Shown here: positions 3,729 to 24,107 of the stretch, one piece after another | How the letters are laid out: each line of letters opens with the position of its first letter | Position numbering within the stretch: the stretch's first letter is position 1 | Assembly (NCBI GenBank): GCA_947494675.1 | Contig: CANLVP010000001.1 | Span: 62,001-126,000, forward strand | Direction of reading: 5' to 3' | DNA length: 64,000 nt | Source of the DNA: an uncultured Paracoccaceae bacterium | Lineage (GTDB): Bacteria > Pseudomonadota > Alphaproteobacteria > Rhodobacterales > Rhodobacteraceae | The notes under the pieces: model-generated | The model's database searches: none | Told to the model about the DNA's origin: nothing | The model's input: the letters and a program-made list of their open reading frames with translations, nothing else | Position numbers and translations under genes: made by a program

Positions 3729-4376
3729 ATGTCAGACTTCGACAACCTGATCGGCGATGCACGGGGGTTTTTGACCCAATTGGCCGCCAACAACAGCCGC
3801 GACTGGTGGCAGGACAACAAGGCCACCTATGACAGCAAGTTAAAGGCCCCGGCGCTGACGCTGCTGGACCAGATGCAGCCCAAGCTTGCGGCGCTGTCAG
3901 GGCTGGAGGTCACGCCAAAGCTGTTTCGCCCCCATCGGGATGTGCGGTTTTCCAAGGACAAGACCCCCTACAACACGCATTTGCACATGATGTGGAGCCT
4001 TGCGACGGGCGCGCGGCAGGACATGGTGTTCTTCTTTGGGGTGGGCCTTGATTACGTGACCGCCGGTGCCGGCACGATGGGGTTTGACAAGCCGGTGCTG
4101 GTGGATTGGCGCAAGTTTGTGGACCTTGATACCGATCGGATCATGGGCGTTGTCACCGGGCTTGAGGGCAAGGGCGTGCAATTTCGCGAACCGGCGTTGA
4201 AGCGCGTGCCGCCGCCCTATGACAAGGACCATCCCGCGGAGCGGCTTTTGCGGATGAAAGGCGTGGTGGGCAGCGTCGCGTTACCGTCGGAAGGGCCGCT
4301 TGAGACGCAGTTGGAAGAGGCCTTTGCGCTGCTTTGGCCGCTCAATGAGATGTTGATCGGGGTGGCTGAGGCGTAG
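3729..4376 (+). CDS. DUF2461 (TIGR02453) family protein
   Basis: A 215-aa protein with the family hallmark of an early FLTQLAANNSRDWWQDNKATY stretch and LFRPHRDVRFSKDKTPYNTH (about residues 60-80). Function is unknown throughout the family. I place the start at 3729 because AAGGGAG precedes it; an ATG seven codons upstream lacks a ribosome site. The TAG stop is the first part of the palindromic repeat that follows. Confidence 0.88.
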   Translation: MSDFDNLIGDARGFLTQLAANNSRDWWQDNKATYDSKLKAPALTLLDQMQPKLAALSGLEVTPKLFRPHRDVRFSKDKTPYNTHLHMMWSLATGARQDMVFFFGVGLDYVTAGAGTMGFDKPVLVDWRKFVDLDTDRIMGVVTGLEGKGVQFREPALKRVPPPYDKDHPAERLLRMKGVVGSVALPSEGPLETQLEEAFALLWPLNEMLIGVAEA

Positions 4377-4398
4377 GGTGGGCGATGCGCCCACCTTT
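4377..4398 (+). terminator. Palindromic terminator of the GTAG/CTAC repeat family
   Basis: GGTGGGCG, 3-nt loop, CGCCCACC, then TTT. The stem starts immediately after the TAG stop of the DUF2461 gene, which belongs to the repeat's GTAG end. It works on paper as an intrinsic terminator for the + strand. Confidence 0.6.
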
Positions 4399-4407
4399 GC
4401 CCACGTT

Positions 4408-4430
4408 GCCGGTCTGAAGCCCGGCCTACG
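4408..4430 (-). repeat. Dispersed palindromic repeat copy (GCCGG...CCGGCCTACG)
   Basis: This 23-nt copy reads GCCGGTCTGAAG followed by CCCGGCCTACG. An identical copy is at 11849-11871 and close copies are at 11799 and 24085. Its CTA (4426-4428) is the TAG stop codon of the minus-strand gene 4426-4893, so the hairpin begins right at that gene's end. Confidence 0.7.
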
Positions 4431-4893
4431 CCAGACGGCGGGCGGCGCTGCCAAGAAGGCCACGGGAATAGACCTTGTGAAATGGCAAGAGCGCCGTGAA
4501 CAACCAGCCGAGCGGTGCGTCGGGTGCGGGCGGCGTCACGGCTGAGCCAAAGTAGAAACGTCCCGGCTGATGAAACAGCCACGAGCGCGTGCGGCCCGCC
4601 ACATCACAAAGCAGGATCTGATCATCGGTGCGATCCTCAACCCGCCAGGCGGCGTAGGTGTCGGCGCTGCCATTGGCGAGGGCCTCGACATCTGCATCGG
4701 TGCTGGCGTGGCCCGCAAACCCGAGGATCAGACGCTCTGCCCGAAAGAGCGGTGTGGTATAGAATGCGCGGATGCAGGCGGCCAGATCGGGGGCGGCCAC
4801 ATCAGCCACAAAGCAATCGGTATAGCAGTCGTCGCGCACAGCATAGCGCTGCAACAGTGCGTTGTCGGGAAGAGGAGCCAGTGTCAGGGTCAT
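4426..4893 (-). CDS. Hypothetical protein, weakly DUF2867-like
   Basis: A 155-aa soluble protein, last gene of a four-gene operon. The C-terminal stretch LFTALLPFHKVYSRGLLGSAA and the internal TDDQILLCDVAGRTRSWLF resemble DUF2867 proteins, but I am not certain. There are no obvious catalytic motifs. Its ATG overlaps the stop of the oxygenase gene (ATGA), so translation is coupled to it. Function unknown. Confidence 0.75.
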   Translation of the reverse strand: MTLTLAPLPDNALLQRYAVRDDCYTDCFVADVAAPDLAACIRAFYTTPLFRAERLILGFAGHASTDADVEALANGSADTYAAWRVEDRTDDQILLCDVAGRTRSWLFHQPGRFYFGSAVTPPAPDAPLGWLFTALLPFHKVYSRGLLGSAARRLA

Positions 4894-5813
4894 GTGCCAG
4901 TCGCCTTGAATTTTTCCATCAGGTAGGGGCCTGAACGCACCATACGCCCCCGTATGGATTCGTCAAGCGGAGCGATTTCGGCGTCCCAGTCGGGTTGATG
5001 GAAGAAGGCCAGCGATTGCCGGGCGGGCTGATCCGGGATTGCGAGAACCCGGTGCAGCGTGCTGACCCAGCGGTCGTTGGTCCAAAGCGCCATCAGGTCA
5101 CCGATATTGATCACAAAGGCCCCCGGCGGTGTAGGCACATCGACCCAGGTATCCCCCTGTTGGACCTGAAGGCCGCGGCGATCGGGTTGCGGCAAAAGGA
5201 TCGTCAGGCTGCCGTAGTCGGTATGCGCCCCGGCGCGCTGCTGATCCTTTTCCGCGGACGGCCCCGTGGCGTGGTAGTGCAGCGCGCGCAAGGCAGAGAT
5301 CGGGTTGCCGATGTAGGGCGCAAAGAAATCCGCGTCGCGCCCAAGGGCCACGGCAAAGACCTGCATGATCCGTGCGGCAAGGCGTTCCATCTCGGCATAA
5401 TAGGCCTCCCACGCGGGCCGAAATCCGGGCAGGTCGGGCCAAAGCGTCGACTGATAGCAGAATTTCAGCGCATCGGGGTTTGCATCAGCGGGGACACGTA
5501 AGGGCCCGCCGTTAAAGGATTCCTTGAGGTCGGGGGGTGTATCGTGGCCTTTGGATTTTGCGAGCGCTTCGGTGTTGGGGCCAAACCAGCCGTAGGGGTA
5601 GCCGGGATGGGGCGCGCTGACGCGGGCCTTGGTGGCGGCGTCCAGCGCAAAGAAATCTTGTGCGGCGGTCCAAACGTTGTCGATCACCGCTTGTGGGACG
5701 CCGTGGCCGGTGAGCACCAGAAAGCCGGTGTCGCGGCAGATGGCGTCGACTTCGGCGGCAGAGGCCGGGTCGGCGGCAAAGCGCGACAGGTCGTAGCTTG
5801 GAAAATCGGTCAA
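4890..5813 (-). CDS. Isopenicillin-N-synthase-like 2-oxoglutarate/Fe(II) oxygenase
   Basis: A 307-aa non-haem iron oxygenase. The N-terminal DIOX_N domain includes the DTGFLVLTGHGVP motif (about residues 29-41). The jelly-roll core carries the iron ligands HTD (in AGAHTDYGSLTILL) and a distal His (STLHRVL), and an R-x-S cosubstrate site (ARQSLAFF). These are the residues needed for activity. The start is a TTG overlapping the TGA of the upstream GFA gene; no in-frame ATG is nearby. Substrate unknown. Bacterial relatives hydroxylate or desaturate small molecules. Confidence 0.88.
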   Translation of the reverse strand: MTDFPSYDLSRFAADPASAAEVDAICRDTGFLVLTGHGVPQAVIDNVWTAAQDFFALDAATKARVSAPHPGYPYGWFGPNTEALAKSKGHDTPPDLKESFNGGPLRVPADANPDALKFCYQSTLWPDLPGFRPAWEAYYAEMERLAARIMQVFAVALGRDADFFAPYIGNPISALRALHYHATGPSAEKDQQRAGAHTDYGSLTILLPQPDRRGLQVQQGDTWVDVPTPPGAFVINIGDLMALWTNDRWVSTLHRVLAIPDQPARQSLAFFHQPDWDAEIAPLDESIRGRMVRSGPYLMEKFKATGT

Positions 5814-6190
5814 TCCATCACCTCCATCTCAGAGAGCGTCAACCAATCCGGGCGGCGGACGTCATAGACGGAAAGCGCGGGCGTCGGCAGGTCGGCGGGG
5901 GCAAGCGCGCCGCCGGGGATCATCACGCCGGGGATGTGGTCGTTGAGATACCAGACCGTTACGCCGCAGGTGGGGCAGAAGTGATAGGTGATCTGGCTGC
6001 CCTCGTCCCCGGTGCGGGTGAAGGATTTGGACCGGCCCTGCGTCGTGACCGCATCGGCGGCGAAACGGGTATTGAGCGAAAAGGCGGACCCGGTGCGCGT
6101 GCGGCAGGCGTGGCAGTGGCAGGCCACGGTGCGGATCGGGTCGGCGGTGGTCGTGGCGGTCAATTGGCCGCAGGCGCAGGTGGCGATCAT
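5810..6190 (-). CDS. GFA (glutathione-dependent formaldehyde-activating)/CENP-V fold protein
   Basis: The 126-aa protein carries the Cys clusters of the zinc-binding GFA fold: CACG near residue 5, CHCHACRTRTG (about 24-34) and FCPTCGVTVW (about 71-80). The founding member was described as promoting S-hydroxymethylglutathione formation; most homologues have no proven reaction. It overlaps both neighbours by 4 bp. It may handle a thiol or aldehyde produced in this operon, but that is inference. Confidence 0.87.
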   Translation of the reverse strand: MIATCACGQLTATTTADPIRTVACHCHACRTRTGSAFSLNTRFAADAVTTQGRSKSFTRTGDEGSQITYHFCPTCGVTVWYLNDHIPGVMIPGGALAPADLPTPALSVYDVRRPDWLTLSEMEVMD

Positions 6191-7071
6191 TCCAACACCT
6201 CGCGCCAGGAGTGTTTCGGGTCATAGCCCAGCAGATTGCGGGCCTTGGTGATGTCATAGAACGTCTCATCCGGTCCCATATCGCGGTTTTGCGGCACGCC
6301 TTGGTAGTGATCGGCGATGATCTGATCGGTAGAGACATTCACCGACATATCGGGGCTGGCGACGTTGAAGACCTGATAGCCAAGGCCATCGACCGCGAGG
6401 CAGCGGTCCACCATATGGCCCAGATCGCGGGCGTCGATATAGCCAAATATATTGCGGCGACGGCTGGCGGGATCATCCATGAAGGCAGGAAAATTCTCGG
6501 CGTATTCATGGGGTTCAATGACGTTGTTGATCCGCAGACCGTAGATGTCAAAGCCGGTACGCGCCTGAAAGGACCGGCCCGTCGCCTCATTGCAGACCTT
6601 GGACATCGCATAGCTGTCATGCGGCACGGTGGGATGGTCTTCGTTGACGGGGATGAAGGCGGGCTTGACCTCGCCATCCGCGAAACAGATGCCATAGGTG
6701 GTTTCAGAGCTGGCAAAGATGATCTTGCGGATGCCGAGTTTCACCGCCGCCTCAATCACGTTGTAGGTGGAGAGCGTGTTTTGGCGAAAACATTCGCCAT
6801 CGGTGCCGATCATGACGCGCGGGACGGCGGCGAAATGCACCACGGCGTCATAGCGCGGCACGCCGGTGCCCGCGTCCAATTCGTGGAAGTCTGTGAACTG
6901 CGACATGGCCCCGATGACCTGACCTGCATCGCAAAGATCGATCAAGAGCTCGGCGCAGGGCAGACCGGATGGCACTTGGTCAAGGTTCAGCACGTGGTGC
7001 CCCTGCCCCAGCAAATACGTGATCGCGTGCCGCCCGGCCTTGCCGCTGCCGCCTGTGAAGATAACGTTCAT
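6187..7071 (-). CDS. NAD(P)-dependent epimerase/dehydratase (extended SDR)
   Basis: A 294-aa extended short-chain dehydrogenase. It shows the Rossmann motif TGGSGKAG at residues 6-13, the SSETTYG catalytic-Ser region and DSYAMSKVCNE, which supplies the YxxxK pair. The family acts on nucleotide sugars or related substrates. I use the ATG at 7071-7069 because a strong GGAGG lies upstream and the longer frame is an artefact. It is the first gene of a four-gene coupled operon. Confidence 0.88.
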   Translation of the reverse strand: MNVIFTGGSGKAGRHAITYLLGQGHHVLNLDQVPSGLPCAELLIDLCDAGQVIGAMSQFTDFHELDAGTGVPRYDAVVHFAAVPRVMIGTDGECFRQNTLSTYNVIEAAVKLGIRKIIFASSETTYGICFADGEVKPAFIPVNEDHPTVPHDSYAMSKVCNEATGRSFQARTGFDIYGLRINNVIEPHEYAENFPAFMDDPASRRRNIFGYIDARDLGHMVDRCLAVDGLGYQVFNVASPDMSVNVSTDQIIADHYQGVPQNRDMGPDETFYDITKARNLLGYDPKHSWREVLE

Positions 7072-7171
7072 CTGGTCCTCCGCCCCTGTTTTGGGGTAGC
7101 CTAGCCCTGTCAGGCGCGCGTGCAAGCGCCCGATTGCTGGGACCGTTCTTCCGCAGACCGAGGAGACGAAG

Positions 7172-8458
7172 ATGAAAACCACCGCAACGCTAGGCCTTGT
7201 GGCGGCGCTGGCCGCAAGTGCTGCAGGGGCAGAAAACCGCATCGATACGATCCGTCCGGATGCACCTGAATTGGCCGGATACGGCGAGCTGCCTGTTGGC
7301 GTGACCACGCGGGTTTTCACCATGGCCGATCAGGTGGATATCGTGAACACCGGCGCAGAGGGCGAGATTGCCCGCGCCGACCGCGCCTTGACTGTCGAGA
7401 TTTGGTACCCCGCCCTGCCTAATACGGTGCCGGGCGGTCAATATGAAGCGGTGATCCGAGATGGCACCACGACCGTGCTGTTGGATGGTTACGCCACGCG
7501 CGGCGCTGTGCCTGCGACCGAGGGGTCTTATCCACTCGTGATCCTGAGCCATGGTTATCCGGGCAACCGCTGGTTGATGGGGTGGCTGGGCGAAAACCTT
7601 GCCTCTAAGGGTTACGTCGTGGCGAGCATCGACCACACCGATAGCACCTATTCCGATCAGGCGGCCTTTGGCTCGACACTTGTGAACCGGCCTTGGGACC
7701 AACGCTTTGTCATCGATCAGATGGCCGCGTTGGAGGATGGGATTGGCGCGATCACCGATGCGAATAACGCCGCTGTCGTGGGCTATTCCATGGGTGGCTA
7801 CGGCGCGCTGATTTATGCGGGGGCCGGTGTCACGCAGTTGGCGACGACGTTTGAATGGGGTGCCCCGCAGGGTCTGCTGGAACGCAATATGACTGGCACC
7901 GAGGAGCATATGAACCTCAAAGACCCGAGGGTGAAGGCCTTTGTCGCCTTTGGTCCCTGGGGCAATAACGCGGGGTTCTGGGATGCAAGCGGCCTGTCGC
8001 AAATCCACACGCCGCTGATGCTGATCGCGGGCGGGGTTGATGACGTGTCGGGCTATGACGCGATCCGCGGCATTTTCGATGGGGCCACGGGCGTGGACCG
8101 CCATTTGCTGACGTTTGAGGCCGCAAACCACAATGCGGGCGCGCCGATGCCCGCGCCTGCCGAAAGCTATGCGGTGAATGAGGACTTGGGCTGGGCCCCG
8201 TTTGAGCATTACGCCGACGCGGTCTGGGACAATACGCGGATGAACAACATCAGCGCGCATTTCGTGACCGCCTATCTTGATCTGCACCTCAAGGCGGATG
8301 CGGACAAGGCGGCCTACTTCGCACTGCAACCCAATGCGGCGGATGGTGTCTGGTCTGTCAATGAAGAAGGCGCATTCGGTGAAGAGCACACCTATTGGGC
8401 GGGCTTTCCGAACCGGACGGCGGCAGGTCTGCGATTTGAGACGAAGCTGGTGGAGTGA
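7172..8458 (+). CDS. Secreted alpha/beta hydrolase (PAF-acetylhydrolase/dienelactone-hydrolase type)
   Basis: A 428-aa protein with a signal peptide (about residues 1-20, ending AASAAGA). The nucleophile elbow GYSMGG sits near residue 210 and the oxyanion region ILSHGYPGNRW near residue 126. A probable catalytic Asp (AGGVDD) and His (AANHNAG) follow in order. It is probably a periplasmic esterase or lipase-like enzyme. GAGGAGACGAAG precedes the ATG. It is divergent from the epimerase operon and shares its 100-bp promoter region. Natural substrate unknown. Confidence 0.87.
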   Translation: MKTTATLGLVAALAASAAGAENRIDTIRPDAPELAGYGELPVGVTTRVFTMADQVDIVNTGAEGEIARADRALTVEIWYPALPNTVPGGQYEAVIRDGTTTVLLDGYATRGAVPATEGSYPLVILSHGYPGNRWLMGWLGENLASKGYVVASIDHTDSTYSDQAAFGSTLVNRPWDQRFVIDQMAALEDGIGAITDANNAAVVGYSMGGYGALIYAGAGVTQLATTFEWGAPQGLLERNMTGTEEHMNLKDPRVKAFVAFGPWGNNAGFWDASGLSQIHTPLMLIAGGVDDVSGYDAIRGIFDGATGVDRHLLTFEAANHNAGAPMPAPAESYAVNEDLGWAPFEHYADAVWDNTRMNNISAHFVTAYLDLHLKADADKAAYFALQPNAADGVWSVNEEGAFGEEHTYWAGFPNRTAAGLRFETKLVE

Positions 8459-8639
8459 TGCGGCACCTCACACACGGGCCGCATCATCACCAAACATGGA
8501 TACCAGCAAGTACACCAAAATTACTTTTTAAGAAGTGCGACCGCACCGAGGTGCGGCCGCGGTCGTCAACGACCTAAACAAAAACACTCGTCACCCTCAC
8601 TACGCCTATAGGTTTAGCTGACGTAGGGTTCACCCGCAC

Positions 8640-8660
8640 CCTGTCTGTTTAGACAGGTTT
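8640..8660 (+). terminator. Possible terminator hairpin downstream of the hydrolase gene
   Basis: A 7-bp perfect stem CCTGTCT/AGACAGG with a GTTT loop, followed by TTT. It lies 182 nt after the hydrolase stop, so it could end that transcript or a small RNA. Confidence 0.4.
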
Positions 8661-8857
8661 GGCAGGTTATTTATCAATGTTTGAAAACAGTTAGCGGGGT
8701 CGCCCCCTACTTTGTTTCGCCCCCGCCAACAGTGCCACAATCCGTCCCGAATCGGACACATTGTGCGTGGCGTGATTCCCGCCGTTTTTGGGCACGGTCC
8801 GAGGCAACTGTTAACCAAAAGGAGATCAGTATCGCGGATCACTGTTCGTCGCCCGAC

Positions 8858-8899
8858 GGGGGCGTGGCGCAGGCAATTCTGATTGCCCTGCCCCGCCCG
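8858..8899 (+). other. Long imperfect stem-loop in the parE leader
   Basis: GGGCG...CAGGCAAT on the left pairs with ATTGCCCTG...CGCCC on the right around a TCTG loop, with a few mismatches. It ends about 50 nt before the parE start. It could affect parE mRNA, or be the 3' hairpin of a short transcript. There is no T run directly after it. Confidence 0.35.
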
Positions 8900-8950
8900 C
8901 TCTGCGATGATACGACACGCCAATAAATCAAAGCAAAAAAGAGCAGCGCC

Positions 8951-10927: not shown

Positions 10928-10939
10928 GGGGGCGCACAA

Positions 10940-11798: not shown

Positions 11799-11821
11799 GC
11801 CGGGGTGAACCCCGGCCTACG
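11799..11821. repeat. Palindromic repeat copy (GCCGGGGTGAA...CCCCGGCCTACG)
   Basis: GCCGGGG, TGAA, CCCCGGC stem-loop followed by CTACG, a variant of the 4408 repeat. It lies in the gene-free spacer 11597-11892 with two more copies; the rest of that spacer holds nothing I can identify. Confidence 0.6.
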
Positions 11822-11848: not shown

Positions 11849-11871
11849 GCCGGTCTGAAGCCCGGCCTACG
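11849..11871. repeat. Palindromic repeat copy, identical to 4408-4430
   Basis: Twenty-three nucleotides identical to the copy at 4408-4430, including the CTACG end. It lies 2 nt from the next copy, so three copies cluster within 100 bp here. Confidence 0.65.
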
Positions 11872-11872: not shown

Positions 11873-11896
11873 GGTGCGTGTGAACACGCACCCTAC
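11873..11896 (-). terminator. Palindromic repeat/terminator at the stop of the endolysin-like gene
   Basis: GGTGCGTG, TGAA loop, CACGCACC, then CTAC. The CTA at 11893-11895 is the TAG stop codon of the minus-strand gene that starts at 12882, so the hairpin follows that gene directly. Confidence 0.6.
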
Positions 11897-12882
11897 CCGA
11901 CGCGGTCGTTTTGGAGGCCTTCGTTCAGGAGGGCGAGGACGTGGGCGGTGGCTTCGGCTTTGGTGATCGCGCCATCGGTGTTCGCGTCCAGACCCTTGTT
12001 GTATTTGTATTGCCGCGAGGGGTACTCAAACAGCACGTAGCTTTTCATCTTGCCCACAGCGCGGGGCCAGAGCACGGCCATGTAGAGGTCAAAGATATCG
12101 TTCAGGCGACCGTGATAGGGGCGGAAGTATTGCTCAACGATATCAAGCTGTTCTTCGGCGGTCATCGCCTTCAAAGCCTCGATTGAGGTGCCCATGCCCT
12201 CTGCCGTTCGTTTGGTGAACTGGATCAGCCCCACGGCCCCGGATAACGGGTTTTCGACGTCGGGCTTGAAGCTGCGCGCGCTTTCAAAGGCCATCACCGC
12301 CATCAGGTCATTGGGGTCGATCTGCAACCCGTTGCTGATGTTGATCACCTTGGCCTTGAAGCTGGGCGAGACCATGGCCCCCCATGCGATCTGCGGGTCC
12401 AAACCGGCCTCGGCCAGAATATTGCCGATCACGATGTCGATGGCGGATTTCGCCAGCGGGGTCACGTCCCACGGGTCGATATTGTCGTAGTGCTTCTTTT
12501 GGCTATTCACCGAAAGGTGCAGGTGCTTGGTATGCGGGTTGGAGCCGCGGTATTCCTGCGCGTCCCAGGCCTTAACCGTGGGTTTGTCGTAGGACCGCCA
12601 GATCTTCTTGTCCCAGATGATGTATTTGATCCGCTTGTCGCGGCTTTCGATCAGTGACTGCACGATCAGGTGGCAGTCACAGCCCTTGTCGGGATCATGG
12701 GTGATGTCAGCGGCAGAGACGACGCGGGACGGGCCGTCCTTGATCCACGGGTTATGGTCGCTTTGGCGCGATTGGTGGGCGGCGTCGCCCACCGTGCCAT
12801 CGGATCTTTTCGACCGGTCCGGTGCCAGATCGTTGATTTGCTGAATAAATTTCGTAAGCGAAGATGCCGCGCGCCAAGCCAT
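11893..12882 (-). CDS. Putative cell-wall hydrolase: M15-like peptidase, lytic transglycosylase, EF-hand
   Basis: A 329-aa protein with three parts. Residues 35-123 look like an M15/VanY-type zinc peptidase: SDHNPW with H43, AADI with D59 and PHTKHLHLSV with H120/H122. Residues 185-255 resemble a lysozyme-like transglycosylase with a candidate catalytic Glu at E200 (AFESA) and GLIQFT at 218-223. Residues 299-310 form a complete EF-hand loop, D-x-N-x-D-G-x-I-x-x-x-E. No signal peptide is visible, as for phage endolysins. GGGGGA precedes the ATG. No other phage genes are nearby. The domain calls rest on motifs only. Confidence 0.72.
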   Translation of the reverse strand: MAWRAASSLTKFIQQINDLAPDRSKRSDGTVGDAAHQSRQSDHNPWIKDGPSRVVSAADITHDPDKGCDCHLIVQSLIESRDKRIKYIIWDKKIWRSYDKPTVKAWDAQEYRGSNPHTKHLHLSVNSQKKHYDNIDPWDVTPLAKSAIDIVIGNILAEAGLDPQIAWGAMVSPSFKAKVINISNGLQIDPNDLMAVMAFESARSFKPDVENPLSGAVGLIQFTKRTAEGMGTSIEALKAMTAEEQLDIVEQYFRPYHGRLNDIFDLYMAVLWPRAVGKMKSYVLFEYPSRQYKYNKGLDANTDGAITKAEATAHVLALLNEGLQNDRVG

Positions 12883-14412: not shown

Positions 14413-14799
14413 TCACTGCTGGATGCTTTCCACGTAATCCGTGAGCACCAAAAGCTTGGCCGGGATCGGCACAGGCACGCCGTTTTCATCGGTCATGACC
14501 AGCGGGCCAAGGTCGCCTGCACCAAATTCGGGCATCACATCGGCGCGGTGCGCGCCGCGATCCAGCCCGTCGATAAAGCTTGCCACGTATGACCGGTCAA
14601 AAACGCCGCCGTTGCGTTCGGCGATGCGTGTGAGGTCAGGTGGCGCGACGTCCAACCCAGCAGCAAGCGGGCCATCGCCCTGCCCTGAGGCCCCGTGGCA
14701 GGCGGCGCAATTGTCCGTGAAGGCCATCTGGCCATCCATCGGCGTCTCCGTAACGCAAGCTGATAATGCAAACAGCGGAAGGATCAGAATTTTGCGCAT
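14413..14799 (-). CDS. Class I c-type cytochrome, probable lipoprotein
   Basis: A 128-aa protein. The N terminus has a lipobox (LFALSAC), so it is likely lipid-anchored. One haem site CAACH is at about residues 31-35, and the probable distal Met is in DVMPEFG. It is a short electron carrier of unknown partner. I chose the ATG at 14799-14797 (preceded by GAGGAGAGCACC); the longer frame runs into the divergent gene. Confidence 0.85.
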   Translation of the reverse strand: MRKILILPLFALSACVTETPMDGQMAFTDNCAACHGASGQGDGPLAAGLDVAPPDLTRIAERNGGVFDRSYVASFIDGLDRGAHRADVMPEFGAGDLGPLVMTDENGVPVPIPAKLLVLTDYVESIQQ

Positions 14800-14902
14800 G
14801 GTGCTCTCCTCTTTTGGGGTCATCATGGCAGATGTTGGGCCCCCTGCCTTGATCCAGATCATGGGCTGCGTCAGGGTGCGCGTCAATAAGGGAGGGATCA
14901 TC

Positions 14903-15334
14903 ATGCATTACGCGGGCATCATGTTGCTGGCAGGCATTGGCGTGCCGATTTTGGCGGCGCTGAACGCGGCTTTGGGGCGGCTCATCGGGTCACCTGCGGT
15001 GGCGGCATCGGTTCTGTTTGCGGTGGCGCTGGTGGTCTCTGTCGTGGTGGCGCTGGTGACGGCCCCGGACGCGGTGTCGCGGTTGGGAATTGCGCCCAAG
15101 CACTTGTTTTTGGGCGGGGTCTTGGTGGCGTTTTACGTGCTGAGCATCACGTGGATTGCGCCCGTGATCGGCGTCGGCAATGCGGTGTTTTTCGTGCTGC
15201 TGGGGCAATTGATTGCGGCGGCGGCGATTGATCACTTTGGTCTGTTTTCGGCGCAAGTCTCGCCGCTGTCACTGACGCGAGCGGCGGGGATTGCATTGAT
15301 GGCGGTGGGGGTCTTTGTCACGCAGCGGGCCTAG
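14903..15334 (+). CDS. DMT-type small transporter (DUF606/YdcZ family)
   Basis: A 143-aa protein with five hydrophobic segments and the compact layout of DUF606 members, which are half-size relatives of EamA drug/metabolite transporters. GGAGGG precedes the ATG. The stop TAG shares its last base with the palindrome at 15334. Substrate unknown. Confidence 0.85.
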   Translation: MHYAGIMLLAGIGVPILAALNAALGRLIGSPAVAASVLFAVALVVSVVVALVTAPDAVSRLGIAPKHLFLGGVLVAFYVLSITWIAPVIGVGNAVFFVLLGQLIAAAAIDHFGLFSAQVSPLSLTRAAGIALMAVGVFVTQRA

Positions 15335-15356
15335 GTGGGCAGATTGCCCACCCTAC
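15334..15356. terminator. Bidirectional palindromic terminator of the CTAC repeat family
   Basis: GGTGGGCA, GAT loop, TGCCCACC, then CTAC, between two convergent genes. The CTA at 15353-15355 is the TAG stop codon of the minus-strand dehydrogenase. Confidence 0.65.
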
Positions 15357-16327
15357 CCCAGTGCGGTGATCCGATCCCAAACCGCGTCCGGCACATCGAC
15401 CAGCGCCATGGGTGTGCGTTGTGATCCGGGCAAACGGGCGCCGGGTTGGTCTGCCACGGCACCAGCCAGTCGTGCGACGCGGGCAGCCCAATGGTCAGTA
15501 TGGGTGCCGGGGTCGATCAGGATATAGAATTGACCAAGGTCGTGGGGCGGCCCCTCGCCGACCTTGAGGCCCGCCACGTCAACGGAATTGACCGACCCGG
15601 TGAGGGCGGCGGCCATCACCTCTGCCATGACGCCAAAACCAAAGCCTTTGGCCCCGCCCAAGGGCAGGATCGCGCCTTTGAGCGCCGCCGCGGGGTCGGT
15701 GGTGGGTTGGCCGTTTTCATCGACGCACCAGCCGGTTGGGATTTGTGTACCGGCGGCTTTCGCCTCTTTGATCGCGCCCAAGGCTGCGGCAGAGGTGGAG
15801 CTGTCGAAATGCAGCGCCATTGCGCCGCCGCCCGGCACCGAAAGCGCGATGGGGTTGGTGCCAAGCACTGGTGTCGCGCCGCCCGGCGGGGCCACCACCG
15901 GCGAGGCATTGGTAAAGCCAAGCCCCACAAGCCCCGCTGCCGCGATCTGCGCGGTGAAGTAGCCCAAAGAAGTGCAGGTGTGGCTATGGGCGATGGCAAG
16001 GCTGGCGATGCCGTTTTGCCGGGCCGCAGCGATGGCGGCGTCCAGACCAGCGGCAAAGGCGGGCTGGGCAAAGCCTTTGGCGGCATCTACGGTGACGGCC
16101 CCCGGACGTGGTTGGTTGACCTGTGGGGTGGCTTGGCCATCGACCCTGCCGGTCCCAAGGGCGGCGCAATAACTTTCGACATAGGACAGACCGCAGATCG
16201 TGTTGCCATGTGCCTCACTATCAGCGGTGGCCGCCGCCACATGGGTTGCGACATGATCAGACGCGCCATGGGCAACAAGAGCGGCATGGGTGGCGGCGTG
16301 GATGTCGGCGGGGGCAATCTTGGGCAT
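15353..16327 (-). CDS. Ldh2 family NAD(P)-dependent oxidoreductase
   Basis: A 324-aa member of the malate/L-lactate/sulfolactate/piperideine-2-carboxylate dehydrogenase superfamily, unrelated to classical LDH. Family marks are the early DSEAHGN (about 36-42), SHTCTSLGYF near residue 115, PVLGTNPIALSVPG, and GGAKGFGFGVMAEVMAAALTG near 225-245. Members reduce 2-oxo acids or cyclic imines in the cytoplasm. The exact substrate cannot be told from motifs. Confidence 0.87.
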   Translation of the reverse strand: MPKIAPADIHAATHAALVAHGASDHVATHVAAATADSEAHGNTICGLSYVESYCAALGTGRVDGQATPQVNQPRPGAVTVDAAKGFAQPAFAAGLDAAIAAARQNGIASLAIAHSHTCTSLGYFTAQIAAAGLVGLGFTNASPVVAPPGGATPVLGTNPIALSVPGGGAMALHFDSSTSAAALGAIKEAKAAGTQIPTGWCVDENGQPTTDPAAALKGAILPLGGAKGFGFGVMAEVMAAALTGSVNSVDVAGLKVGEGPPHDLGQFYILIDPGTHTDHWAARVARLAGAVADQPGARLPGSQRTPMALVDVPDAVWDRITALG

Positions 16328-16349: not shown

Positions 16350-16370
16350 CGATTATTCGGCGAATAATCG
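16350..16370 (-). terminator. Palindrome downstream of lolD, ATTCG-N-CGAAT family
   Basis: CGATTATTCG, G, CGAATAATCG: a perfect 10-bp inverted repeat starting 5 nt after the lolD stop. It is the reverse complement of the copy at 62722-62742. It is a probable terminator of the lolC-lolD operon, although the T run is short. Confidence 0.5.
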
Positions 16371-16375
16371 TGGCT

Positions 16376-18326: not shown

Positions 18327-18412
18327 TTGCTGCCTTTTGTCTGCTCGCGCGGACATTGGGCGATGCAGGCGCGAGGGTCAATGTGGCAAGGTGATTTTCG
18401 GCCCCGATCGGC

Positions 18413-19660
18413 CTAGTGGAGTGCGGCCCCGCACGCCTTTTGTCGGGCGGCGAGGAAGCTGCGTTCCTGCGCGTTTTGCGTAAGCGCGATGGCGCGGTCA
18501 TAGGCGGCATGCGCGGCGGCGGTATCACCGGCGCGGGCCGACAGATCGGCAAGCGCCGCGTGGTAGGGTTGGTAGCTGTCCATCTGCGCGTCATGGGCCT
18601 GCCGCAACAGCGCCAAGCCTGCGGCGGGGTCTTGGGCGTAAGACACGGCAATCGCGTGATTGATCTGCACCACCGGGTTGGGTTGCAACCTGAAAAGCAG
18701 CCCGTAAAGCCCTGAAATATCGTGCCAATCGGTGCTTTCCCAATCGGGCGCATTGGCATGGGCGGCAGAGATCGCCGCTTGCAGTTGATAGGGTCCGATT
18801 TGCTGCCGGGCCAAGGCCTGCTGCAGGATTCCGGTCCCTTCGGTGATGGCCGCGCGGTTCCAAAGCGCGCGATCCTGCGCCTCAAGCGCCACCATATGGC
18901 CATCTGCACCGGTGCGTGCGGCGCGGCGGCTGTCGTGCAGGATCATAAGTGCCAAAAGACCCGCGACCTCAGCCTCTTCCGGCATCAGGGACAACACGGT
19001 GCGGGCAAGGCTGATCGCCTCGGCGGTCAGATCAGGCCGCGTGAGGTCGTCACCAGTGCTGGCGGCGTAACCTTCGTTAAAGATCAGGTAGATCACTTGC
19101 AGCACCGCGTCGCGCCGTTCGGGCAGCACATCGCGGTCGGGGATCACATAGGGAATACCCGCGCCCCTGATCTTGCGTTTGGCGCGCACAAGCCGCTGCG
19201 CCATCGTCTCGGGCTTGGTGACAAAGGCATGAGCAATCTCATCTGTGGTCAGCCCACCCAGCGTGCGCAGGGTCAGCGCCACCTGCACCTGCCGGTCAAG
19301 CGCCGGATGGCAACAGGTAAAGATCATCTCGAGCCGTTTGTCGGGTATCACCTGATCCTCGATCGGTTGGTTGGCGAGATCTGCCAGATGCGACAGCTCT
19401 GCTGCGTGGGCATTGTGGGTGGCGGTGCGGCGGATGCGGTCGATGGCCTTGCGCCGCGCGGCGGTGATCAGCCAAGCGTCGGGCGCGTGCGGCAGCCCGT
19501 TGCGCGCCCAGTGATGCAGAGCCGACACGACCGCGTCTTGCAGCGCGTCTTCGGCCAGTTGGATGTCGCCAAGCGTCTTGGTCAGCGACGCCAGAATGCG
19601 CCCCCACTCCTGCCGCGCGATCCGCGCAATGGCATCCTGCGTGACAGAAGGGGGCGTCAT
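18413..19660 (-). CDS. ECF42-type RNA polymerase sigma factor with C-terminal TPR-like extension
   Basis: A 415-aa sigma factor, much longer than ordinary ECF factors. Region 2 occupies about residues 10-80 ([26 protein letters not shown]) and region 4 about 110-170. The remaining C-terminal half is helical and TPR-like (DUF6596). This architecture and the adjacent DGPF gene define group ECF42, where the extension is needed for activity and no anti-sigma factor is known. The start lies 4 nt after the DGPF stop. Confidence 0.9.
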
Positions 19661-19664
19661 GCGG

Positions 19665-20018
19665 TCAGCTGTCCCAGACAATAAGGGGGCGCACTTCGAT
19701 CCGGCCATAGGTGGCGGTGGGGATCATGGCGGCGCATTTCAGTGCCTCGTCGAGATCGGCACATTCGAGCAGGTAATAGCCACCCAGCTGTTCCTTGGTT
19801 TCGGCAAAGGGGCCGTCCATGGTTTCGGTCTTGCCACCGCGAATACTGACGGTCGTGGCGGTGGACACGTCTTGCAGGGCGTCACCGGCGACGAACTTCC
19901 CCTCGTCTTTCATCTTGGTGGTGAAGTCCTGGTAGCCCTGCATAAAGGGGCCAAATTCGGGTGATCCGGGCTGTGGGCCAGTTCCTTCGGCGGAATAGAT
20001 CAGGCACATGAATTGCAT
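19665..20018 (-). CDS. YCII-related DGPF domain protein, ECF42 partner
   Basis: A 117-aa YCII-fold protein containing the [18 protein letters not shown] motif (about residues 71-88) that names the DGPF family. Such genes are usual targets and neighbours of ECF42 sigma factors. The enzymatic role is unknown. AAGGAG precedes the ATG at 20018-20016. It is the first gene of a two-gene operon with the sigma factor. Confidence 0.9.
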
Positions 20019-20129
20019 TTCGTTTCTCCTTGTCAGCAGGCGCACAACGCGTGCGCCTTACATACCAGACGCACGGGGATTGCTGAAATCGACAGTAGGG
20101 CGAAATTTTTTTTGAAAAAAGTTTCAGGG

Positions 20130-20828
20130 CTACCAGTGATTGCCGTCTGAGCGCCATTGCGCGGGGTCCTGCCCCTTGGTGCCAGCCGCCGCCCACAGCA
20201 GCCCACGGCGCAGCATTTCATGTGCCGGCCCTGTGTCGATCACATCCGCATGATGGCCCAAGGCGTTGTAATAGACGCGCCCGTGGCCCCACTGCCGTGT
20301 CCAGGCGACGGGCATATCAACCGCGCCATTGGGGCTGTGATACCAGGTCACCACATCGGTGCGTGTGGTGGCGAGTACTGTGTTGGCGGGGTCGGTGTGC
20401 AGGTAATATTGCTCTGTCTCCACCTCAAAATCCGGGATACCCGCGACCAAGGGATCATCAGATGCAATCTGCACCCGGTGTTTCACGCCGTCACCGCCGG
20501 GGTGCGCGACCCAATTGGCGCCGGTCATGAATTGCCACAGCGGCATATCGCGGAACGCGTCGCACATGCCGCCGTGACAGCCCGCAAGGCCGGTGCCGCG
20601 GGCCACGGCCTCTGACACATTGGTGGCGGCTTCGCGGGTGGTCTGGCTCATGGTCCAGACCGGCACGATCAGGTCGAGGGTTTGCAGGTAGTCAGGGTCG
20701 TCAAAGGCGTCGAGCGTATCGGTCACGGTCACCTCGCCACCTGCCTCCTTGAGGATATCGCGAAAGATCACGGCGACTTTGTCGGGTTCATGGCCGTCCC
20801 AGCCACCCCAAGTGATCAAGGCTTTCAT
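20130..20828 (-). CDS. ThuA-like protein (glutamine-amidotransferase fold)
   Basis: A 232-aa ThuA family member. Typical features are the start KALITWGGWDGHEP, the turn GTGLAGCHGGMCDAFRD and the end RVYYNALGHHADV. ThuA-like proteins are linked to trehalose/disaccharide use in rhizobia but their reaction is not settled. GGAAGGAG precedes the ATG, which overlaps the DUF2937 stop by 4 bp. An A/T-rich tract follows the gene (20105-20125). Sugar genes are absent nearby, so a trehalose role is not supported here. Confidence 0.85.
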   Translation of the reverse strand: MKALITWGGWDGHEPDKVAVIFRDILKEAGGEVTVTDTLDAFDDPDYLQTLDLIVPVWTMSQTTREAATNVSEAVARGTGLAGCHGGMCDAFRDMPLWQFMTGANWVAHPGGDGVKHRVQIASDDPLVAGIPDFEVETEQYYLHTDPANTVLATTRTDVVTWYHSPNGAVDMPVAWTRQWGHGRVYYNALGHHADVIDTGPAHEMLRRGLLWAAAGTKGQDPAQWRSDGNHW

Positions 20829-21397
20829 CGGCGCACTCCTTCCAGTTTGCGGATCGGCGGTTGTGCCGAAGATGTGGGGCGTTGCAGGGCGGGTTCTTGC
20901 CGGGGTGCGGGGCCGCGTCTGCGGCGGAATGGAGCGGTGATGAGTGCCAGAAGTGCGGCGATCCCGGCCCAGCCGGTGACAAAGCCCGCCCCTGCCGTGA
21001 CCGCGCCCGGCGTTGACAGCGGCAGCGCCGGTTCGAAGTCCGCCCAAGCGGCGGCCAGTGTTGCGGGGTCGGCCATGCGCTGCGGCATGGCGATCCGCTC
21101 CATTGGGGTGGCCGCGCGCAGGGCGGTCAGGTTGTCTGAGAGCCGCGCGTGGCGGGCGAAAGTCTCGCGCATGTCTGTCGCGCGGGCGTCGAGAAAGCTG
21201 GTGCCAGTGAGTTGGGTCAGCGCCTCTTCCCGGCCTAACCCCGCCTCTAAGGCAGAGGCGTCAAAGTCCATTACCACAACGGTCAGCGCATCGACCTGCC
21301 CCGCAAGGCGTTGCAGATATTGCTGGCTGAACGATGGGTATTGGGACAGCACAGCGGCCCCGGCAAGGCCACCAGCGAGGGTCAAAGCACGGCGCAT
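20825..21397 (-). CDS. DUF2937 family membrane protein
   Basis: A 190-aa protein with an N-terminal helix (about 5-20), the family motif SFSQQYLQRLAGQVDAL (about 22-38) and a second membrane segment near 138-158, followed by a basic tail (RRRRGP). DUF2937 has no known function. It sits between peroxiredoxin and ThuA-like genes, touching both (1-bp and 4-bp overlaps), so all three are probably translated together. Confidence 0.82.
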   Translation of the reverse strand: MRRALTLAGGLAGAAVLSQYPSFSQQYLQRLAGQVDALTVVVMDFDASALEAGLGREEALTQLTGTSFLDARATDMRETFARHARLSDNLTALRAATPMERIAMPQRMADPATLAAAWADFEPALPLSTPGAVTAGAGFVTGWAGIAALLALITAPFRRRRGPAPRQEPALQRPTSSAQPPIRKLEGVRR

Positions 21398-21957
21398 CAG
21401 ATGCCCCCCTTGATCTGGTCAGCGACCCAGGCCGCGTCCGTATCGGGCGGGAAAACAGGATAGTTGACGCAGGCGATGACACCGTCCTTTGCGATTATTG
21501 TGAGGCGTTTGAGCATGTCACGCCCTTCAACCTGCAACGTCGGCAGATCGAGGGCCTTGGCGAGGGTTAGGCCCGCATCCGACAAAAGCGGATAGGGCAG
21601 ATGCAAACGGTCCGCCGCCTCTTTCTGATCATCCGTCGTCTGGGTCGAGATGCCATAGATATGCGCGACACCAAGTGCAGTGAGGTCGGCGTAAAGGTCG
21701 CGATAGGCGCAAGTTTGCGGCGTGCAGCCGCGCGCGCCTGCGATCTGGTCCCAACCGTCGGGCAAGGCGCGGTCGGGCCGCCCGGTCATGGGATAGCAAA
21801 ACAGCACGGCAAGACCGGACAAGTCACCAAGCGCCACCGCTGCCCCATCCGTCGCCGTCAAGGACACCTCTGGCAGGCGCCTGCCAACCAGATGCGCGGC
21901 CCTACCATCGTCGGCGGGGGCCGGAATTGTGGACCAATCCACGTCGGTTAGGGACAT
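21397..21957 (-). CDS. Peroxiredoxin (AhpC/TSA, thioredoxin fold)
   Basis: A 186-aa protein of the redoxin superfamily. It has LPEVSLTATDGAAVALGDLSG and the strand AVLFCYPMTGRPDRALPDGWDQI, where the Cys-containing region is unlike the standard PxxxTxxC. CTPQTCAYRD (about residues 76-85) supplies the likely redox Cys pair. Probably a peroxide- or disulfide-handling enzyme. I use the ATG at 21957 (GAGGCACGAC upstream). First gene of an operon with DUF2937 and ThuA. Confidence 0.82.
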   Translation of the reverse strand: MSLTDVDWSTIPAPADDGRAAHLVGRRLPEVSLTATDGAAVALGDLSGLAVLFCYPMTGRPDRALPDGWDQIAGARGCTPQTCAYRDLYADLTALGVAHIYGISTQTTDDQKEAADRLHLPYPLLSDAGLTLAKALDLPTLQVEGRDMLKRLTIIAKDGVIACVNYPVFPPDTDAAWVADQIKGGI

Positions 21958-22028
21958 GTCGTGCCTCATGTCTTTTTGTTTTGCCAAAGCATAGGCCAAG
22001 CGGTGCATCAGGTCTATCTGGCAAAAGC

Positions 22029-22092
22029 CGTGTCTGGTTTATTTGACACTGGGTAAAATGAAACATACATATAGTCCAACGAACCAGACACG
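22029..22092 (+). promoter_or_regulatory. Promoter flanked by a perfect 11-bp inverted repeat
   Basis: CGTGTCTGGTT (22029-22039) is repeated inverted as AACCAGACACG (22082-22092). A consensus -35 TTGACA (22043-22048) and, 17 nt on, TACATA (22066-22071) lie between the arms. The gene at 22115 follows. The layout suggests an operator embracing the promoter, possibly read by the XRE protein encoded two genes down or by a DNA loop-forming dimer. Confidence 0.55.
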
Positions 22093-22114
22093 ACGATTCG
22101 CAAAGGAAAGCGCT

Positions 22115-22564
22115 ATGGCCTTCGAGGAACGCAACACTTGGACCTATTTGGTGATCAGCCTGATCGTCATGCTGATCTTTGGCACGCGCATCTATGACGC
22201 GACCGTCATGGGCCTGTTTGACGGGCCAGACGGGTTGCAAACATGGGCGCGGCGGGTGCTGACCTATATCCCGATTGCGATTGTGATGGTGATTGCGGGT
22301 GTGATCCTCGCCAATATCATTTACGGCATCTTCACGGGGGGCGACGATCTGACGATGAAAGAAGATGAGCGTGATCGCCATATCGGCCTGCGCGGGATGC
22401 GCGTCACTGGCGCGGTCTTTTCCACCGGATGGATCATCGCGGTGATCTTGCTGGCCATCGGATATTCGGCGCTTCAGGCGCTCAATCTGATGCTGATTGC
22501 GGCGTGGTTTTCGGATGTGGCGGGCAATCTGGTGAAGCTCTTTTTCTACCGGCGCGGCTACTGA
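22115..22564 (+). CDS. Integral membrane protein paired with an XRE regulator
   Basis: A 149-aa protein with four predicted membrane helices (about residues 10-28, 48-70, 100-118 and 122-140) and a charged cytoplasmic loop, MKEDERDRHIGLRG. Membrane proteins of this shape are often encoded just before a small YozG-like XRE repressor. Function unknown. AAAGGAAAG precedes the ATG; an upstream in-frame start would lie within the promoter. Confidence 0.82.
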   Translation: MAFEERNTWTYLVISLIVMLIFGTRIYDATVMGLFDGPDGLQTWARRVLTYIPIAIVMVIAGVILANIIYGIFTGGDDLTMKEDERDRHIGLRGMRVTGAVFSTGWIIAVILLAIGYSALQALNLMLIAAWFSDVAGNLVKLFFYRRGY

Positions 22565-22785
22565 TGGGCGCGCCACCGATCAGCAATACGATCCGGCGAC
22601 TGCGCTTTGAAACCGGAGAAATGACGCAAAAGGCGCTGGCCGAAGCGGTGGGCGTCACCCGTCAGACCATTGTGGCGATTGAGAACGCGAAATATTCGCC
22701 GACGCTGGAATTGGCGTTCAAGATCGCCAAGGCTTTTGACAAGCCGCTAGAGGATGTTTTTCAATACGACGCGCCTGAAGAATAG
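22564..22785 (+). CDS. Small XRE-family transcriptional regulator (YozG-like)
   Basis: A 73-aa protein that is almost entirely one helix-turn-helix: MTQKALAEAVGVTRQTIVAI (about residues 20-39), followed by NAKYSPTLELAFKIAKAF. Its start overlaps the stop of the membrane-protein gene (TGATG), so the two are coupled. Likely a local repressor; the inverted repeat at 22029-22092 is the obvious candidate target. Confidence 0.9.
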   Translation: MGAPPISNTIRRLRFETGEMTQKALAEAVGVTRQTIVAIENAKYSPTLELAFKIAKAFDKPLEDVFQYDAPEE

Positions 22786-22817
22786 CGTCTAACCTACAGA
22801 TAGATAAGGAATTTCAC

Positions 22818-23462
22818 ATGGGACGTCGTTCTATGAACAAGATAGTTGTGCCTGCTACCCTGCTCTTTTTGACAGCGATTCCGACCATCATGGCCGCTGT
22901 GCGTGTGGTGCAAATTCCGGCCGGGACCACCCCCGCTGATGTGGCCTATTTGATGACCCTGCCGCTGCCCTATTGGCTGCATGCAGCGGCAGGTGTTGCC
23001 TTTGGCATTATCGGGCCGTTGCAGTTTGGGCGCGTGCTGGCGGGGCGCTTTGGCTGGCTGCACAAGGCATTGGGCCGCGTCTTTGTCGTCGCCGGTGCCG
23101 TGCTGGGGCTGTCGGGGTTGCGGTTGCTGCTGGCCTTCCATGGATCGTCCACGTGGCTGCTGGACGCGGCACGGATCACTGGCGGCATCGCCCTGTTGAT
23201 CGCGCTGGCCCTTGCCATCCGCGCGATCCAGGACCGCGATGTGCCGAGCCACCGCGCTTGGATGATCCGGGCCTATGCCATTGGGGTCGGCCAGTCGCTG
23301 ATCGCCTTTATCCTGTTCCCGATTTACCTGATCACCGGTGAACCACCTGTCGGCCTGTTGTCGGACCTGACGGTCGTGATCTCTTGGGCGATTTCCATCT
23401 GGCTGGGTGAATATGCGATCCGTCGCGCCGCGCGCCCCGCCCCCATGCCGCAACACGCTTGA
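22818..23462 (+). CDS. DUF2306 family membrane protein
   Basis: A 214-aa protein with about six membrane helices. The H-x-G and HRAWMIRAYA (about 145-154) segments are typical of DUF2306. AAGGAATTTCAC precedes the ATG. Function unknown. Its TGA overlaps the sequence just before the methyltransferase start, so they are probably cotranscribed. Confidence 0.82.
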   Translation: MGRRSMNKIVVPATLLFLTAIPTIMAAVRVVQIPAGTTPADVAYLMTLPLPYWLHAAAGVAFGIIGPLQFGRVLAGRFGWLHKALGRVFVVAGAVLGLSGLRLLLAFHGSSTWLLDAARITGGIALLIALALAIRAIQDRDVPSHRAWMIRAYAIGVGQSLIAFILFPIYLITGEPPVGLLSDLTVVISWAISIWLGEYAIRRAARPAPMPQHA

Positions 23463-23476
23463 GCAAAGGAAAAATC

Positions 23477-24094
23477 ATGTCACGCGCAACATTCTGGAAC
23501 GTAATTGCCAAGAAATACGCCCGCGATCCGGTGGCGGACGTGCCGAGCTACGAGAAAAAGCTGGCGATGACCCAAGCGCTGCTGCGCCCCGAGATGCAGC
23601 TGCTTGAGGTTGGCTGCGGCACCGGGACAACCGCGCTTTACCATGCGCCCAAGGTCGCGCGGATCGACGCCATCGATTTTTCCAAAGCGATGATCGGGAT
23701 TGCCCGCGACAAGGCCACAGATCAGGGGATCAGCAATGTCGATTTCCGCGTGGCGAGCTTGGCCGATCTACCCAAGACGCCGCTGTACGATATGGCCTTG
23801 GGACTGTCGCTGCTGCATTTGCTGGATGATCCGACGGCTGGCTTGGCGGCCCTAGCGGGACAGGTGAAACCGGGCGGCTATGTCGTCACCTCAACCGTAT
23901 GCATGGGCGATATGACGGGTCTGGCGCCCAAGATCGTGCCGTGGATTGGCAAGCTGGGGTTGATCCCCAAGGTGGCACTGGTCACGCGGGATCAGTTGAT
24001 CGCGGCGCATAAGGCCGCAGGGCTGGCTGTGGTCGAAGAGTTTCGACCCCGCCCCGATGCCTCGGTCTTTTTGATCGCGCAGACGCCGGTCTGA
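23477..24094 (+). CDS. Class I SAM-dependent methyltransferase
   Basis: A 205-aa methyltransferase with motif I LLEVGCGTGTTAL (about 41-53), the acidic ribose-binding end of strand 2 (IDAIDFS) and a GLSLLHLLDD motif IV region. The substrate is unknown; the layout is close to UbiE/small-molecule enzymes. AAAGGAAAAATC precedes the ATG. It converges on proS, 8 nt away, with a shared palindromic repeat. Confidence 0.87.
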   Translation: MSRATFWNVIAKKYARDPVADVPSYEKKLAMTQALLRPEMQLLEVGCGTGTTALYHAPKVARIDAIDFSKAMIGIARDKATDQGISNVDFRVASLADLPKTPLYDMALGLSLLHLLDDPTAGLAALAGQVKPGGYVVTSTVCMGDMTGLAPKIVPWIGKLGLIPKVALVTRDQLIAAHKAAGLAVVEEFRPRPDASVFLIAQTPV

Positions 24095-24107
24095 AGTCCG
24101 GCCTACA
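24085..24107 (-). repeat. Palindromic repeat copy at the proS stop
   Basis: GCCGGTCTGAAG then TCCGGCCTACA, differing at two positions from the 4408 copy. The CTA at 24103-24105 is the TAG stop of proS. The other end of the repeat lies inside the last codons of the methyltransferase gene. Confidence 0.6.

Follow-up and report, generated by a model that had tools for sequence, protein, structure and literature searches.

The window, that is, the whole stretch of 64,000 nucleotides analysed here, contains seven short hairpin repeats, all of which (7/7) carry an unpaired GTAG at one end of the palindrome. For each copy we give the strand on which its sequence reads GTAG. The first copy, at 4373-4395 (+ strand, GGTGGGC stem), ends the DUF2461 gene at 3708-4376 (+), the TAG of its tag at 4374-4376 being the stop codon. 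The second, at 4408-4429 (- strand, GCCGG stem), does the same for a convergent gene of 155 aa at 4426-4893 (-), which stops with TAG at 4426-4428. Two copies on the - strand, at 11799-11820 (GCCGGGG stem) and 11849-11870 (GCCGG stem), end no gene and are also present in the relatives G001 and G002. The copy at 11873-11896 (- strand, GGTGCGTG stem) has its TAG at 11893-11895, the stop of an SLT-domain gene at 11893-12882 (-). At 15334-15356 (- strand, GGTGGGC stem), TAG 15353-15355 is the stop of an Ldh_2 gene (15353-16327, -), and at 24085-24106 (- strand, GCCGG stem), TAG 24103-24105 is the stop of a class II tRNA-synthetase gene (24103-25440, -). These hairpins and the five TAG stops had been described in an initial annotation; all were found to be present and the stops correct, with hairpin ends off by at most 1 nt. 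Two stops of converging genes had been missed there. A YdcZ-like gene at 14441-15334 (+) stops with TAG 15332-15334 and has base 15334 in common with the repeat, and a methyltransferase gene at 23459-24094 (+), converging on 24085, stops with TGA 24092-24094 in the loop of the repeat.

The window hairpins belong to a known class, the GTAG-tagged repetitive extragenic palindromes (REPs). The initial annotation had described a TAG junction that stays fixed while the stems vary; this is real, and the junction is the GTAG tag of the known REP superfamily. The palindromes are 21-24 bp in size and fall into three stem families. Genome-wide, we found 67 unique dispersed copies (48 GGGTG-type and 19 GCCGG-type), a count that comes from two patterns and leaves out degenerate variants such as L009 and L010; GTAG was built into the patterns, so the tag is not an independent test for these copies. 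One identical 23-mer is common to 25 of the 67. The GGGTG-type pattern gave 50 matches versus 0 with the reversed-pattern control, a 22-mer with up to 3 mismatches gave 15 versus 0, and the loose GCCGG pattern gave 19 versus 10. The window had no match in Rfam. Copies were mostly located 3' of genes, with 40 head-side and 36 tail-side stops near the 67 REPs. Opposed pairs, 31-59 bp apart, also occur in this genome (C1:43643/43702, 717919/717952, 740542/740573 and 850168/850205; C3:338930/338964).

Since the fixed GTAG letters contain a stop codon, a REP at a gene end can double as the stop. We found that in 20 of the 67 genome copies, an ORF of at least 130 aa terminates exactly at the TAG within the tag. 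ORFs that are open into the repeat head were in the TAG frame in 21/28 cases at a minimum of 100 codons (p 8e-6 versus an expectation of 1/3), 20/22 at 130 (p 3e-8), 17/19 at 150 (p 6e-7) and 14/16 at 200 (p 1e-5). The head-side stops of ORFs of at least 130 aa (n=40), counted over a span that starts 60 nt ahead of the head and ends 30 nt beyond the tail, comprised 20 at the tag position, 19 upstream (-1 to -57) and a single stop at +32. The tail-side stops (n=36) showed no comparable peak. An in-frame bias was also seen in other genomes among ORFs of at least 120 codons entering a GTAGG hairpin (11/15, a small sample: 6/6 in the G001-G004 stretches, 3/4 in L119-L122 and 2/5 in 75 other named loci; G005 and L127 were left out).

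We then compared the stops with those of relatives free of the repeat. Of 21 stop-type sites examined, 8 had no comparable relative and 2 had no relative free of a REP or its remnant. At the 11 comparable sites, the shift between the relative's stop and the REP TAG was 0 at 8, +3 at 2 (both read by eye) and +12 at 1. The comparison shows the place of the stop to be the inherited feature at 8/11 comparable sites, with the REP set on top of it. Two sites lie outside the 11. At C1:628118, G001 has TAA and a decayed repeat, and the script gave a shift of +6 in a Gly-rich stretch; read by eye, the true shift is probably 0. At C1:717952, G004 was the only relative placed and has the REP. Counterparts of C2:165208 and C2:307357 guessed from synteny gave no match.

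The codon at the shared position varied among sites. REP-free relatives have TAG at C1:66373 (window 4373; G003 and G005, with TGA in G001/G002), C3:751643 (G003) and C1:73873 (window 11873), where G003 reads GTAG at this codon and G001, G002 and G004 have the REP. They have TGA at C1:66408 (window 4408; G003 and G001/G002, with TAA in G004 and TAG in G005), C1:622462 (named relatives), C1:921209 (G003), C1:821220 and C1:43643 (both G001/G002), C3:726255 (G001, G002 and G004) and C1:86085 (window 24085; G005, while G001-G004 have the REP or a decayed REP). The relatives thus stop with TAG in some places and with TGA in others, which means that a REP either occupies an existing TAG or brings one, depending on the site. 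The suggestion that the repeat supplies the stop is borne out by TGA in REP-free relatives at C3:726255, C1:821220 and C1:622462 and fails where TAG was already there; TAG without a REP rules out that the REP always supplies the stop. The comparison with relatives lacking the repeat, which the initial annotation had proposed, accordingly returned both a different stop codon (TGA) and an unchanged TAG, depending on the site. Several REP-free relatives may represent loss or decay rather than sites that were never occupied.

One explanation of the overlap is that a transposase inserts the REP on the 3' side of a (C/G)TAG that is already there; the repeat then supplies nothing. The single clean empty-site contrast, in which loss in G001/G002 is possible, fits this model: at C1:77334 (window 15334), the repeat is absent from G001 and G002, whose sequence is GGCCTAGGCC, with TAG as the stop of both genes, and in the window genome the hairpin has a TAG on either side. 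In the closer mates G003 and G004, this site holds hairpins that resemble REPs and seem to have decayed. The same-codon TAG at C1:66373, C1:73873 and C3:751643 also agrees with a TAG target, and GTAG occupies the place of the guide in IS200/IS605 elements. However, TAG makes up 28-33% of stops in the genus (18/54 window genes; 283/1009 in G001-G005), so some TAG in REP-free relatives is expected anyway, and a TAG that was there beforehand cannot be the only cause, given the TGA in REP-free relatives at C3:726255, C1:821220, C1:622462, C1:921209, C1:86085 and C1:66408. We consider this model unlikely. The earlier idea that the repeat inserts at stop codons holds in part, in that the same codon is used at 8/11 sites and CTAG is found without the repeat at 15334 in two relatives. 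The other empty-site comparisons involve decay or local rearrangement, and for REPs that do not lie at stops the empty sites were too disturbed to yield a target motif.

A second explanation is that a stop followed by a hairpin is selected at many genes, for 3'-end stability or termination, and that REPs are the handiest source of hairpins. The site upstream of rpsP, at the stop of the chorismate mutase gene, has the appearance of one such case. Nine named relatives keep a TGA with a hairpin there, and the stems show compensating changes (both-side changes at 4/7 pairs, in hand-picked stems without a tree-based control). At the same codon, three REP-bearing clades have instead TAG and a REP, with three stem types, on a tree from a single gene and a quick method that leaves 6/20 inner branches open. 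For 15/18 sequences, no more than 26 of 500 plain shuffles folded as strongly; folding was weak in L128 (139 of 500), L132 (80) and L117 (47). Similarly, at L057 and L061 one intergenic place holds different REP-like hairpins in different relatives.

Outside such sites, the evidence argues against a selected module. We scanned for perfect-stem hairpins of at least 6 bp behind stops, a control that is blind to the 5-bp GCCGG stems, in the window (53 stops), the G001-G005 stretches (1009 stops) and 79 named loci (1181 stops). There was no peak at TGA or TAA stops, apart from hairpins at -3 for 4 of the 662 TGA stops in the named loci. These four are unverified singly, and the rpsP hairpins begin at that position. 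TAG stops of G001-G005 showed a small hairpin peak at 0 (6/283), in which the displayed examples were mostly REPs. Non-REP hairpins are thus not clustered at stops, and a general stop-hairpin module was rejected. In addition, the folding that follows the stop in REP-free relatives is weak at C1:77334 and C1:73873 (-2.2 to -7.2 kcal/mol); at C1:66373 it is irregular without being weak (-9.9 and -13.1 kcal/mol). A T tract (at least 5 T in the next 9 nt) follows 6/67 REPs in the head direction and 4/67 in the tail direction, so classical termination is not their usual role. Selection of a stop-plus-hairpin at many genes is therefore quite improbable, and the combined stop-terminator of the initial annotation is not supported in general, with the rpsP site resembling one. 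The genome-wide overlap of REPs with stops (20/67) goes beyond that of non-REP hairpins. That ordinary hairpins in 3' intergenic DNA coincide with stops by chance is extremely improbable: REPs generally lie near gene ends and TAG is a common stop (18/54 window genes), but chance is contradicted by the genome-wide counts of frame (20/22) and position (20/40 head-side stops at one position, with no tail-side or non-REP peak).

We are confident of the overall account, in which GTAG-tagged REPs sit on inherited gene ends and the tag's in-frame TAG serves as the stop. The REPs are short, non-coding, probably non-autonomous mobile palindromes with an invariant unpaired 5' GTAG tag. A head-first copy at a gene's 3' end with its tag in frame provides the stop and places a hairpin directly behind it in the mRNA, an arrangement visible in the sequence itself. 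Where REP-free relatives stop with TGA, the simplest view would be that the REP brought the TAG. The sharp overlap most likely reflects a mixture of spread to gene 3' ends, perhaps favouring TAG-containing or hairpin-bearing places via the GTAG guide, and subsequent retention of copies whose TAG would preserve the protein end. Random placement with in-frame retention alone predicts more shifted stops than the 3/11 found. More tentatively, REPs might exchange into existing gene ends and replace the stop together with any hairpin there, turning a TGA-hairpin into a TAG-REP with the protein end unshifted, as possibly happened at rpsP in several lineages, each with its own REP family. If so, the spread of REPs would be one driver of stop-codon switching. 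With 20/67 copies acting as exact stops and mates lacking some copies, the genus offers before-and-after views of single sites. This suggests a possible route for a change of stop codon from TGA to TAG together with a hairpin behind it, which may bear on mRNA 3' ends and translation termination. By analogy with E. coli REPs, the host may be affected through protection of mRNA 3' ends, through attenuation or through slower translation, and not through classical Rho-independent termination.

Like Rho-independent terminators, the REPs are G+C-rich hairpins at gene 3' ends; unlike them, they rarely have a T tract and are scattered through the genome in near-identical copies that share one tag. A study cited in PMC12306157 reports that translation is reduced by E. 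coli REPs located no more than 15 nt from a stop. These also form a hairpin directly behind the stop, but here the stop belongs to the repeat. A literature search with an exact phrase returned no paper, one on ribosome stalling had nothing on REPs among the papers listed, and a search with Rhodobacteraceae found nothing on GTAG REPs, an unrelated genome paper aside. GTAG is described as a recognition motif of TnpA-REP (Nunvar et al. 2010, PMC2817692; PMC8266576), and these REP/RAYT systems share with ours the GTAG motif and a similar repeat of Haemophilus influenzae, GTAGGGTGGGCTTcAGCCCACC. In contrast to the usual REP/RAYT systems, a Y1 transposase was not found here: PF01797, the single model used, matched 0/6 genus genomes and 10/61 genomes searched, so the mobiliser is unseen here. 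A cognate RAYT is usual in REP genomes and not defining, as it is reported missing in some REP species (PMC3733652). The closest parallel is the GTAG REPs of Di Nocera et al. (2013, PMC3733652), which likewise have an unpaired GTAG at one end, a palindrome of 20-40 bp, many copies, opposed dimers and locations at gene 3' ends, both unidirectional and convergent, and whose termini "often provide" a TAG stop. The host differs, being an uncultured Rhodobacteraceae genus, and the main text of that paper does not include Rhodobacter or Ruegeria. The overlap of REPs with stops is therefore already in print. The new element is the view of how REPs, whose dissemination has been called poorly understood (PMC8266576), settle on existing gene ends.

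The window contains seven short hairpins with GTAG on one strand immediately ahead of the stem, referred to here as repetitive extragenic palindromes (REPs), whose tag end is the head and whose other end is the tail. The TAG was the exact gene stop in five of the seven: those of a DUF2461 gene (4373-4395), a gene of 155 aa that matches no Pfam family (4408-4429), an SLT-domain gene (11873-11896), an Ldh_2 gene (15334-15356), and a class II tRNA synthetase gene (24085-24106). The REPs at 11799-11820 and 11849-11870 supplied no gene stop. At 15334, a TAG also closes the opposite gene and has one base in common with the repeat. At 24085-24106, the loop holds a TGA that is the stop of a convergent methyltransferase gene, so that a single 22-bp REP terminates two convergent genes. 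Upstream of the three-REP cluster, the gene at 10940-11596 matches DUF4145 and, under the curated cut-off, HEPN.

Two pattern searches of the 3.92-Mb genome that includes the window (G000) gave 50 matches (48 after dropping two nested ones) and 19 matches; after the flanks were fetched, 67 unique REP copies were obtained, degenerate variants excluded. For ORFs of at least 130 aa, 20 of the 67 copies contribute the TAG stop, although ORF calling was mechanical and some of the 20 (e.g., a 139-aa ORF at locus L048) may not be genes. Among the 22 ORFs of this length that are open into the repeat head, 20 used the TAG frame (p = 3e-8 versus one third), and minimum lengths of 100, 150, and 200 codons gave 21/28, 17/19, and 14/16. 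From 60 nt ahead of the head to 30 nt beyond the tail, 40 stops of ORFs of at least 130 aa were found on the head side: half of them (20) at the tag position, one at +32, and the other 19 upstream. The 36 tail-side stops showed no comparable peak. Three tail-side genes have a TGA stop inside the repeat (L008, L014, and L038); at the latter two, genes entering the REP tail-first stop at the internal TGA, as at 24085 in the window. As a control, perfect-stem hairpins of at least 6 bp behind stops in relatives gave no peak at TGA or TAA stops and a small one, mostly REPs, at TAG stops. The initial annotation had named, as grounds for refutation, a genome-wide overlap with stops no greater than that of 3' intergenic hairpins; the in-frame excess and the control answer this test.

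The GTAG tag provides an in-frame stop where the inherited stop lies, and the hairpin follows it directly. We examined 21 stop-type sites; 13 could be located in one or more of five genus mates (G001-G005), and for 11 of the 13 some relative shows no recognisable REP at the stop. At 8 of these 11, one or more such relatives stop on the same codon. The REP-free stop was 3 nt later at two sites, read by eye (C1:821220 and C3:726255, named by contig of the window genome), and 12 nt later at one (C1:43643). Without a REP, the stop was TAG at C1:66373 (G003, G005), C1:73873 (G003), C3:751643 (G003), C1:77334 (G001/G002), and C1:66408 (G005, where the alignment stopped 147 nt short). It was TGA at C1:66408 (G003, G001/G002), C1:86085 (G005), C1:622462 (named relatives), C1:921209 (G003), C1:821220 and C1:43643 (G001/G002), C3:726255 (G001, G002, G004), C1:77334 (G005, at +3), and C1:66373 (G001/G002, with a different REP just downstream). 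At C1:921209, G005 has TAG 12 nt later. TAA, with other hairpins or remnants nearby, was found at C1:66408 (G004), C3:751643 (G001, G002), and C1:622462 (G001). The share of TAG among all stops is 18 of 54 in the window itself and 283 of 1009 across the genus mates, so REP-free relatives do not clearly exceed this background in their use of TAG.

The sole clean contrast was C1:77334, where G001/G002 read GGCCTAGGCC, two convergent genes with overlapping TAGs, and in the window genome a TAG stands on either side of the hairpin. G003 and G004 carry decayed REP-like hairpins there, so the repeat was possibly lost in G001/G002. At C3:726255, TGA is the stop in three mates including G004, the closest mate in two of the comparisons, and a REP and TAG with local rearrangement are present in the window genome. 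At loci L057 and L061 of the window genome, compared with G001/G002 (L214, L221, L217, L218), the REPs or hairpins in a given intergenic place differ in stem family between relatives, as if one had been replaced by another.

A site ahead of rpsP (L028, 1501-1523), which follows a chorismate mutase gene (CM_2), was readable in 19 of 80 named loci. In nine Rhodobacteraceae genomes (L115, L117, L118, L124, L128-L131, L133), TGA is directly followed by a hairpin, and the stop codon forms the stem base, with TGA pairing with TCA or a near match. The sequence of this hairpin varies while pairing is maintained, with compensating, two-sided change in four of seven pairs in at least one genome, for stems picked by us. 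On the same codon, five loci have GTAG hairpins and two have GTAA hairpins; genus mate G001 has TAA and a hairpin, and any notable fold is lacking in two Octadecabacter. For G001 and L118, the automatic call erred and the right stop came from other comparisons. At this site, the window genome carries a member of a set of six identical copies. The genomes of L119, L121, L120, and L122 are REP-rich (55, 61, 47, and 47 matches versus 3, 4, 8, and 12 in reversed-pattern controls, strands and nested matches counted separately). Among the matches listed, which include none from L119, known by its count only, the rpsP hairpin sequence recurs elsewhere in the same genome for L120, L121, and L122. The L132 genome has 2 matches versus 10 in the control, and its hairpin is therefore unlikely to be a REP; L123 has 11 versus 5 and L125 3 versus 3, and the TGA genomes tested have 8 versus 10 (L115) and 15 versus 7 (L117). 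On a quick one-gene tree, the three stop states require at least seven changes. Three REP clades, each with its own stem type, hold this stop; TGA lineages L115 and L117 separate the window genome from the other two, which are neighbouring branches. The tree does not decide between separate gains and one gain with later replacement and reversal.

Random insertion, with only in-frame copies surviving, would predict a spread of ancestral stop positions; the zero shift at 8 of 11 sites speaks against this and favours some targeting or replacement. REPs most likely arrived at gene 3' ends via a transposase since lost or undetected, and copies would have been retained where TAG kept the protein end unchanged, perhaps assisted by a mobiliser preference for TAG or existing hairpins. 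The Y1 transposase (PF01797) was present in 10 of 61 genomes searched and had no match in G000 or in any of the five genus mates. The genus is an uncultured one of the Rhodobacteraceae, close to Loktanella and Yoonia. GGGTG-type matches, nested ones included, numbered 50 in G000 versus 9, 10, 8, 20, and 1 in G001-G005. The copy seen most often in the window genome, the 23-mer GTAGGGTGGGCAATCTGCCCACC, also occurs without change in Vannielia litorea (L167), a member of another genus.

A T tract lies behind 6 of 67 copies in the head direction, which rules out classical intrinsic termination as the usual role. In the mRNA, the REPs probably serve to protect the 3' end, to cause attenuation, or to slow translation, in keeping with what is reported on E. 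coli REPs near stops in the part of PMC12306157 available.

In the portions of the REP literature searched, we found no earlier account of the stop position being conserved, of existing TAGs occurring alongside imported ones, or of the rpsP exchange. The overlap of REPs with stops is real, strong, and mostly known. As far as the accessible text of Di Nocera et al. 2013 (PMC3733652) goes, the repeats match the GTAG-tagged REPs described there in tag, size, copy number, stem families, opposed pairs, and 3' location, and the stop-supplying role was already published; the core of the finding is therefore not new. TnpA-REP transposases recognise the tag together with the hairpin, according to the excerpted PMC8266576, and it is the GTAG tag that keeps the junction constant across stem types.
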